64,000 nt of DNA from an uncultured Nocardioides sp. (lineage in GTDB: Bacteria > Actinomycetota > Actinomycetes > Propionibacteriales > Nocardioidaceae). Location: the NCBI GenBank assembly GCA_902805885.1, contig CADCUM010000079.1, positions 23,598 to 87,597 on the forward strand, read 5' to 3'. Shown here in pieces: positions 61,542-64,000 of this stretch (its first letter is position 1; each line of letters starts with the position of its first letter). Made by a program: the position numbers and the translations under genes. Under the pieces are notes generated by a model. That model saw only the letters and a list, made by a program, of their open reading frames with translations, did no database searches and had not been told where the DNA came from.

Positions 61542-62521
61542 TGGACATCGACCTGAGCATCCTGCGGATGCTGGAGCGCGAGAAGGAGATCTCCTTCGAG
61601 GTCCTCTGCGAGGCGATCGAGCAGGCCCTGCTCACCGCCTACCAGCGCACCACCGACGCCCAGCAGAGCGCCCGCGTGGAGCTCGACCGCAAGACCGGGC
61701 ACGTGACGGTCCTCGCCCGCGAGGTCGACGAGGACGGCAACCTGGTCTCCGAGTACGACGACACGCCCGAGGGGTTCGGCCGGATCGCCGCCACCACCGC
61801 GAAGCAGGTGATGCTCCAGCGCCTCCGCGACGCCGAGGACGAGATCCGCTTCGGGGAGTTCGCCGGCAAGGAGGGCGACATCATCTCCGGTGTCATCCAG
61901 CAGGGCCGCAACCCCGACGACGTCATGGTCGACCTCGGCAAGCTCGAGGCCCTCCTCCCGGTCAGCGAGCGCGTGCCGGGGGAGTCCTACCCCCACGGCG
62001 AGCGCATCAAGTGCCTGGTCGTCTCGGTCCGCAAGGGCATGCGCGGGCCGCAGATCACCCTCTCGCGCTCGCACCCCGGGCTGGTCAAGAAGCTCTTCGC
62101 GCTGGAGGTCCCCGAGATCGCCGACGGCACCGTGGAGATCGCCGCCATCGCCCGCGAGGCAGGACACCGCACCAAGATCGCCGTCCACTCCACCGTCCCG
62201 GGCGTCAACGCCAAGGGCGCGTGCATCGGCCCGATGGGTCAGCGGGTGCGCAACGTGATGAGCGAGCTGCACGGCGAGAAGATCGACATCGTCGACTGGT
62301 CCACGGACCCGGCCGAGATGGTGGCCCACGCCCTCTCGCCGGCGCGGGTCACCTCGGTGGAGATCGTCGACCTCGCCGCCCGGTCGTGCCGCGTCGTCGT
62401 CCCCGACTTCCAGCTGTCCCTGGCCATCGGCAAGGAGGGGCAGAACGCCCGACTGGCGGCTCGCCTCACCGGCTGGCGCATCGACATCCGCTCCGACGAG
62501 GCACCGGCACCGACGGACTGA
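61541..62521 (+). CDS. nusA: Transcription termination/antitermination protein NusA
   Basis: [55 protein letters not shown] domains. Confidence 0.97.
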
Positions 62522-62524
62522 GCC

Positions 62525-63163
62525 TCACTCCCGCGCGACCATCGTCACGCCGAGGGCGACCATCATCGCGCCGCCGCCGGCGGAGAGCTGGTCGAGGCGG
62601 CGGGGCTCCGCCCCGAACCACGCCCGGGCCCTGCCGGCCACGAGTGCCCACACGCTGTCGGAGGCCACGGCCAGCGCGGCGAACACGAGTCCCAGCACCA
62701 GCATCTGGAACCAGGCGTGGCCGGCTCCGGTGTCCACGAACTGGGGCAGGAACGCGGTGAAGAAGACCAGCGTCTTGGGGTTGGTGACCCCGACGGTGAA
62801 CCCGATGCGGAGTGCCCGGCCCGGTCGCGCAGCCGTCGCCCCGCGGTCCGCGGCGACCATGGCCAGCCGGGCGTCGGCCCGGTGCCGGACGGCCTGCACG
62901 CCCAGCCACACGACGTACGTCCCGCCGAGCACCTTGACCACGAGGTACGCCGTGGAGCTCGACTCGACGACGGCACCGAGCCCCAGGGCCACGCAGGCCA
63001 CCTGGGCCAGGAGCCCGAGACCGTTGCCGACGACCGAGAGCAACGCGTCGCACCGCCCGACGGTGAGCGCGCGGCCGATGGTGAACAGCAGGCTGGGGCC
63101 GGGCACCTGGATGAAGAGGAGCGAGGCGCCGAGGAACGCGAGCCAGGAGACGGCGGTGGGCAC
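62525..63163 (-). CDS. LysE family translocator
   Basis: QVPGPSLLFTIGRALTVGRCDALLSVVGNGLGLL, GFTVGVTNPKTLVFFTAFLPQFV. Confidence 0.9.
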   Translation of the reverse strand: MPTAVSWLAFLGASLLFIQVPGPSLLFTIGRALTVGRCDALLSVVGNGLGLLAQVACVALGLGAVVESSSTAYLVVKVLGGTYVVWLGVQAVRHRADARLAMVAADRGATAARPGRALRIGFTVGVTNPKTLVFFTAFLPQFVDTGAGHAWFQMLVLGLVFAALAVASDSVWALVAGRARAWFGAEPRRLDQLSAGGGAMMVALGVTMVARE

Positions 63164-63240
63164 GGCACGAGTGTCGGCCGCTCGGCACGGTGCGACAAGC
63201 CATTTCGCCCCGGGTGCTCCCAGCGAGTAGGGTGGACGCA

Positions 63241-63585
63241 GTGGCTCCCACTCCTGACAACCCCGCGCCCGGACCCGTCCGGACCTGCGTCGGATGTCGG
63301 AGCAGGGCCACAGCGAGCGAGCTGCTGCGGGTGGTCGCAGGCTCGGACGCCGAGGGCTCACCGGCCCTGGTGCCCGATCCGGACCGCCGGGCGCCGGGCC
63401 GCGGGGCGCACGTGCACCCCACGCCCCAGTGCTGGCAGCTCGCGGTGCGACGGAAGGCGTTCCCCCGGGCCCTGCGGGTCCGCGGACAGCTCTCCGGCGC
63501 ACTGGTGGAGGGGCACATCGCCTCGTCCTTCTCGCCGACCGGACCACTGCAGCACCGACCAGAAACTGGAGCACGCAGCTCATGA
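63241..63585 (+). CDS. ylxR: YlxR family RNA-binding protein
   Basis: PVRTCVGCRSRATASELLRVVAG...GRGAHVHPTPQCW; leaderless GTG after TAGGGT-N7. Confidence 0.92.
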   Translation: MAPTPDNPAPGPVRTCVGCRSRATASELLRVVAGSDAEGSPALVPDPDRRAPGRGAHVHPTPQCWQLAVRRKAFPRALRVRGQLSGALVEGHIASSFSPTGPLQHRPETGARSS

Positions 63586-63627
63586 GCACTCGATGAGTCA
63601 CTCGCGATGAGTTTGCACACCCACTAG
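63582..63627 (+). other. Chain of three ATGA-coupled mini-ORFs: MSTR, MSHSR, MSLHTH
   Basis: ATG 63582 overlaps ylxR stop; ATG 63593 and ATG 63607 each overlap the previous TGA; last stop TAG 63625-63627. Confidence 0.5.
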
Positions 63628-63641
63628 CTGTTCCGTTTCCC

Positions 63642-63670
63642 CTCCTTCTGGGGTCACGGGCCAGAAGGAG
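63642..63670 (+). promoter_or_regulatory. SD-sequestering hairpin upstream of infB
   Basis: CTCCTTCTGG (63642-63651) / CCAGAAGGAG (63661-63670), perfect 10 bp, 9-nt loop; AAGGAG SD in right arm, 11 nt before GTG 63682. Confidence 0.65.
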
Positions 63671-63681
63671 TAGTTCACACC

Positions 63682-64000
63682 GTGGCAAAAACCCGAGTCC
63701 ACGAACTCGCCAAGGAGTTCGGAGTCGAGAGCAAGTTCGTTCTCGAGAAGCTCAAGGAGATGGGGGAGTTCGTCAAGTCGGCGTCGTCGACCGTCGAGCC
63801 CCCCGTCGAGATGCGCTTCAAGAAGCAGTACGGCGACCAGCTGAAGGCCGCAGCCTCGTCGGCGCCCGCCGCCGAGTCCGCTGCCCCCGCGGCAGCCCCT
63901 GCCCCCAAGGCGCCGGCGCGGAAGGCAGCCGCCGAGGCGCCTGCCGCCCAGCCGGAGACTGTCGCTGCCCCGGCTGCCGAGACGCCCGCCGCCCCGGCGC
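63682..64000 (+). CDS. infB: Translation initiation factor IF-2, N-terminal part (truncated by window)
   Basis: [42 protein letters not shown] then Ala/Pro-rich linker. Confidence 0.95.

Follow-up and report, generated by a model that had tools for sequence, protein, structure and literature searches.

The initiation factor IF2 is essential, and yet the open-licence literature yielded no account of how its level is set in Actinomycetes. In an uncultured Nocardioides sp. the leader of infB, the gene encoding IF2, raises this question in an unusual form. In the window (the whole stretch of DNA that was analysed, 64,000 nucleotides long) three ORFs of four to six codons follow one another between ylxR and infB. 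The initial annotation took them for a ribosome relay that reports ylxR translation, or initiation capacity, to the expression of IF2.

The identities of rimP, nusA, ylxR and infB were confirmed with Pfam and NCBIfam, and the features of the junction are collected in Table 1. In the source assembly a gene encoding a LysE-type translocator/exporter (62528-63163, minus strand) separates ylxR-infB from the rimP-nusA unit. Since this opposite-strand gene intervenes between nusA and ylxR, the ylxR-infB pair probably has its own promoter in this assembly; a simple promoter scan returned none for it. No Rfam match close to the gathering score was found at 62500-64000.

Table 1. Features of the ylxR-infB junction (positions in the window)
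Feature	Position	Strand	Remarks
ylxR (rnpM-like) CDS	63241..63585	+	PF04296, E 3.7e-20; GTG start picked by eye; stop TGA at 63583-63585
SD of mini-ORF1, GGAG	63568..63571	+	read from sequence; 10 nt 5' of the mini-ORF1 ATG
mini-ORF1, MSTR	63582..63596	+	ATG AGC ACT CGA TGA; 4-nt overlap with mini-ORF2
CGA before overlapped stops	63590-63610	+	also at homologous sites
mini-ORF2, MSHSR	63593..63610	+	ATG AGT CAC TCG CGA TGA; without own SD
mini-ORF3, MSLHTH	63607..63627	+	ATG AGT TTG CAC ACC CAC TAG; without own SD
hairpin A, conserved	63628..63664	+	abuts mini-ORF3 stop; leaves most of the infB SD unpaired; weaker in this species; covarying stem, 67 leaders
stem B, alternative, 10 bp	63642..63670	+	63642-63651 with 63661-63670; hides infB SD; some lineages only
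SD of infB, AGAAGGAG	63663..63670	+	read from sequence
infB (IF2)	63682..64000	+	GTG start; PF04760 (IF2_N), E 2.3e-13; runs off window end

In the window the ATG of mini-ORF1 overlaps the ylxR stop and each mini-ORF is joined to the next by ATGA, at coordinates that the initial annotation had given correctly to the base. Successive links shift the frame by -1, and stops are thereby placed in three frames. When both strands of the window were scanned for ORFs that begin with ATG or GTG and have 3-12 codons, this was the single chain of at least three coupled mini-ORFs, and the pattern RTGA-7N-RTGA-10N-RTGA has one occurrence in the entire 3.1-Mb assembly. Moreover, among dinucleotide-shuffled infB leaders a chain of three arose in 58 of 9400 (0.6%), which together with the single occurrence in the assembly rules out a chance origin. 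The idea that such chains are a common feature of many genes was likewise rejected, since at this spacing none was seen elsewhere in the source genome; other chain matches in 59 genomes of the class were scattered and mostly GTGA-based.

Distribution of the chain among Actinomycetes

The infB leaders compared came from named genomes and from further members of the family, the phylum and the class. With mini-ORFs of up to 12 codons, 183 of the 188 distinct leaders from Actinomycetes carry three or more that are coupled and lie no more than 200 nt from infB, and allowing up to 25 codons raised this to 186, counts which ignore kinship in a set where leaders share descent and Nocardioidaceae are oversampled. 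Of the 26 leaders that represent the other classes of the phylum, none has three or more coupled members at the shorter limit and 2 do at the longer one. The carriers include Nocardioides, Aeromicrobium, Micromonospora, Salinispora and Glycomyces, and further Geodermatophilus, Kineococcus, Ruania, Actinoallomurus and Rhodococcus. The start codon of infB is GTG in 188/188 Actinomycetes leaders and mostly ATG in the other classes of the phylum.

The conservation of the ATGA steps in spite of sequence drift, which the initial annotation had proposed as a check, thus holds across the class, and this class-wide retention of the coupled steps supports its reading of the series as a termination-reinitiation chain. 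By these comparisons the relay geometry is strongly supported. The number of steps can change, since Bifidobacterium (L089, L108) mostly retains two of them and a few leaders (L174, L182, L205) have four coupled short ORFs.

Ribosome entry, the hairpin and the infB Shine-Dalgarno sequence

The predicted pairing with the anti-SD differs sharply along the leader. At mini-ORF1 the duplex has a median of -7.7 kcal/mol across leaders and lies at or below -6 in 86% of them, and at infB the median is -9.6 kcal/mol, with 184/184 leaders at or below -6. At mini-ORFs 2 and 3 the median is -1.9 kcal/mol and only 0-1% reach -6, as compared with a median of -3.3 kcal/mol and 20% in the shuffled comparison. 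The links show the stop/start overlap of 4 or 1 nt and the SD-less downstream starts that characterize ATGA/TRATG coupling, and the lack of an SD at mini-ORFs 2 and 3 fits reinitiation. Judged by its sequence, the leader would offer one ribosome entry site, two SD-less steps, and then infB with a site of its own.

The gap between mini-ORF3 and infB measures 33-74 nt in nearly all leaders and is occupied by a hairpin. In most leaders its foot lies 0-7 nt from where the mini-ORF3 stop codon begins, and its other end is commonly 3-6 nt 5' of the SD. The GGUCCG/CGGACC stem covaries, with 92% of cells paired as against at most 61% when slid, and both-sided changes occur in five of the six stem pairs. 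One leader (L114) has lost 1 nt of mini-ORF3 in comparison with L116, a close relative, and its mini-ORF3 continues into the hairpin as a result; this is either a variant or a sequencing error.

The initial annotation had described a hairpin that hides the infB SD, beginning 14 nt after the mini-ORF3 stop. The distance is correct and such a stem does exist in the window lineage, but it is not general, since the minimum-energy fold leaves every base of the infB SD unpaired in 115/176 leaders, and hairpin A competes with it. Folding of that stretch alone in the window gives -18.6 kcal/mol for hairpin A and -17.5 kcal/mol for stem B, A being marginally more stable. The balance between the two is predicted to be sensitive to a ribosome: when 14 nt of the window, counted from the mini-ORF3 stop codon, are masked, the infB SD goes from a predicted pairing of 0.16-0.61 to one of about 1.0. 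Over 92 leaders, in a test where the stem was kept and the loops were shuffled, masking raised SD pairing by a mean of 0.245 in the native leaders and 0.129 in the shuffled ones (p about 1e-4). Strong loop-SD complementarity was present in only 17/101 leaders, however, and overall a leader's own pairs were not better than swapped ones (p = 0.22). A general loop-to-SD switch was therefore rejected, the excess over shuffled loops being moderate, and the switch is kept for some lineages. In three leaders (L006, L207, L208) both the SD, CAGGAGG, and its complement in the loop (CCTCCTGG-like) have changed together relative to the window, a hint that an SD-hiding stem covaries within the family.

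The position of the hairpin bears on two other explanations. The chain may sense nothing and simply carry post-termination ribosomes toward infB, with the hairpin shortening the distance from stop to SD and infB expression proportional to upstream traffic. The short intervals at both ends of the hairpin would suit such a delivery, and ribosome-delivering short ORFs have been proposed in mycobacteria (PMC4633059, PMC12548453). Nevertheless three leaky SD-less steps make a poor delivery route, infB has a strong SD of its own in every leader, and coupling to ylxR is not conserved, so that we consider this explanation unlikely, if the best of the alternatives.

The hairpin might instead be a transcription terminator without a U-tract, controlled by the ribosome on mini-ORF3. 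A GC-rich covarying hairpin directly 3' of the mini-ORF3 stop would be suitable for this purpose, and in many other bacteria attenuation has been predicted for the leader of rimP, a gene of this operon (PMC2965389). An intrinsic-terminator attenuator was nonetheless rejected, as the scan of the plus strand at 62500-63800 found no terminator-like site with hairpin and T-run; the stem lacks a U-run on its 3' side, and the hairpin stands directly upstream of the SD. Transcription attenuation is accordingly improbable.

Drift of sequence within the coupled frames

What is kept in these leaders is the arrangement of starts and stops. In 184 three-step chains 356 of the links are RTGA and 12 are TRATG (1-nt overlap), and 525 of the 552 starts are ATG, the other 27 being GTG. 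The start-to-start spacings fall into ten combinations with steps of 8 to 32 nt, all of them whole-codon, a spacing which the link finder demands; the count free of this bias is that of leaders lacking three steps, 5 of 188 when mini-ORFs may have up to 12 codons. Mini-ORF1 has four codons in 140/184 chains and mini-ORF2 five codons in 156/184. The lengthening from 4 to 5 to 6 codons remarked in the window is therefore common among leaders, but mini-ORF2 sometimes has four codons and mini-ORF3 is variable.

The encoded peptides are not kept. At positions 1, 2 and 3 there are 51, 77 and 133 distinct peptides, with no conserved peptide and no shared amino-acid run across the three positions, by which a leader-peptide attenuator sensing an amino acid was ruled out.

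Substitutions in the links preserve the coupling. Rhodococcus and Geodermatophilus have GTG at step two and retain the overlap, and some leaders use the overlap forms TAATG or TGATG. In three groups the usual first ATG has been lost to ACG or CCG, and mini-ORF1 begins instead at an ATG or GTG further upstream in the same frame (MATSTR and MTTSTR in L143/L144/L147, MSPSTR in L187, and the VTLTSAR type in L192-L195/L198); in the last of these AAGGAG stands immediately 5' of the replacement GTG. A small-genome group, with MKLK, MSSLEL and MRSFN, retains the form of the chain without sequence likeness, and in L182, L183 and L205 the chain is present with no sequence likeness left. Kept geometry under drifting sequence is what translation of coupled frames should produce, and a protein-binding repeat would not be expected to show it.

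An untranslated protein-binding or structural RNA/DNA motif, with GATGAG as the repeated unit, could account for the repetition of ATGAG words and for the strong nucleotide-level conservation of codons 2 and 4 of mini-ORF1. It would hardly account for spacings that change only by whole codons, for the exchange of ATG and GTG, for TAATG and TGATG stops, for the upstream replacement of lost starts or for chains that persist after all likeness has gone, and we regard it as highly improbable.

The initial annotation had also tied the chain to the translation of ylxR. This part did not survive as a general statement: the ylxR stop lies at -29 to +192 nt from mini-ORF1, the ATGA overlap exists in only 54/180 leaders, and mini-ORF1 has its own SD. 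Since the stop position varies so much and the overlap is found in the minority, the ylxR link is a local feature, and ylxR-to-infB coupling as the general purpose of the chain is ruled out by the range of distances. The least probable of the explanations, that the chain is an insulator whose stops in all frames keep ylxR ribosomes that have read through or changed frame from reaching infB, takes up the frame move of -1 at each link but stumbles on the same variability, as the ylxR end is often far upstream; moreover a stop cluster needs no overlapping starts, yet nearly every leader retains starts and stops alike along the chain, with a strong preference for ATG over GTG.

One codon is conspicuous within the drift. 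CGA is the last codon of ATG-type links in 146/162 cases at step 1 (90%) and 114/174 at step 2 (66%), whereas in the infB genes of these loci its share of NNA codons is 7.6%. CGA is decoded through a weak inosine-adenine pair. An easy release of the CGA-reading tRNA from the P site could aid the shift of the ribosome onto the overlapping AUG.

A proposed relay and its relation to known systems

We suggest that the infB leader of Actinomycetes holds a class-wide cis-acting translation relay whose SD-less reinitiation steps read initiation (IF2) capacity and control infB by feedback, a reading to which we give a probability of about one half. Ribosomes would enter at the SD of mini-ORF1 and terminate after about four codons; they would then have to reinitiate at two overlapping SD-less starts and would finish mini-ORF3 at the foot of the hairpin. 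About 15 codons would thus demand three initiations and three terminations, and for this reason passage should depend on the capacity for initiation and reinitiation and not on peptides or elongation. We infer that the mini-ORFs are translated and that the relay reports this capacity, IF2 itself being presumably the most relevant factor for passage.

A ribosome at the mini-ORF3 stop would cover the 5' arm of the hairpin, and in the window lineage the loop would then pair with the infB SD and turn infB off. When IF2 is plentiful the relay would run and infB would go down, in a negative feedback; when IF2 is scarce the relay would fail, hairpin A would form, the SD would be free and infB would go up. 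That ribosomes reaching mini-ORF3 lower infB is, from the predicted folds, the better guess for the sign of the feedback in the window lineage. As a general OFF switch the model is weak, because few leaders have strong loop-SD complementarity and no excess over swapped pairs was seen. The strong free SD of infB in most leaders counts against control by the relay, and infB could there initiate unaided. A role in IF2 expression is nevertheless plausible, since the chain recurs before infB and is found at this spacing nowhere else in its own genome.

The choice of infB as the gene behind the chain is understandable from what is known of IF2. In E. coli reinitiation has a higher IF2 requirement than ordinary initiation and is opposed by IF3, notably where no SD is present (PMC2268962). 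Release of short peptidyl-tRNAs by IF1 and IF2 has also been reported (Karimi 1998, as cited in PMC10192219), which would affect ORFs of 4-6 codons. An IF2-dependent reinitiation together with such a release would make the infB leader a fitting place for the chain and IF2 the likely signal.

Overlap coupling of gene pairs, single leader ORFs and the multi-uORF control of GCN4/ATF4 are all known, in part well known. The coupling of gene pairs by ATGA/TGATG (Huber 2019, PMC6728339; review PMC12548453) shares with the infB leader the 4-nt and 1-nt overlaps, the reuse of ribosomes and a second start that can lack an SD. However it joins two functional genes in one step, whereas here three ORFs of 4-6 codons without a conserved peptide are chained and precede a gene that the chain does not overlap. 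GCN4/ATF4 (PMC5972666) also has several tiny uORFs in which the last codon matters, and passage is governed by reinitiation and by the factor delivering the initiator tRNA, which the architecture of the infB leader would fit. It works by eukaryotic scanning over spacers and regulates a transcription factor, while the infB leader has overlapping start-stop steps and its relay would regulate an initiation factor; no common ancestry is implied. The autoregulation of infC (IF3) in E. coli and Streptomyces (PMC5472188) is likewise a case of an initiation factor gene controlled via the initiation step that the factor affects, but it acts by start-codon discrimination at a non-canonical start, without uORFs, and concerns IF3 and not IF2. 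Leader-peptide attenuators and the coupled small ORFs of mycobacteria (PMC4833913, PMC4633059, PMC13236596) have short ORFs before a gene, sometimes with a hairpin after the stop. Such systems respond to one particular amino acid or depend on a stall caused by peptide or codon, and most have a single leader ORF, whereas the infB chain keeps the number of steps and their coupling while the peptide drifts. No conserved bacterial multi-step relay before infB without peptide constraint was found in Rfam or in the open-licence literature.

A bolder reading, which we hold to be less likely than not, would see in Actinomycetes a control of IF2 in the style of GCN4, where the relay would directly measure IF2-dependent reinitiation, the SD-less steps would multiply the signal in a negative feedback, and the inosine-decoded CGA ahead of each overlapped stop would be tuned for release onto the overlapping AUG. 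If the proposed relay is real, the leader would be a cis element in which a whole class conserves start-stop geometry and not peptide or RNA sequence. It would represent a new way of sensing the capacity for translation initiation and a ready reporter for reinitiation, and it opens to experiment the question of whether reinitiation at SD-less overlaps is carried out by 30S or by 70S ribosomes, and which factors limit them.
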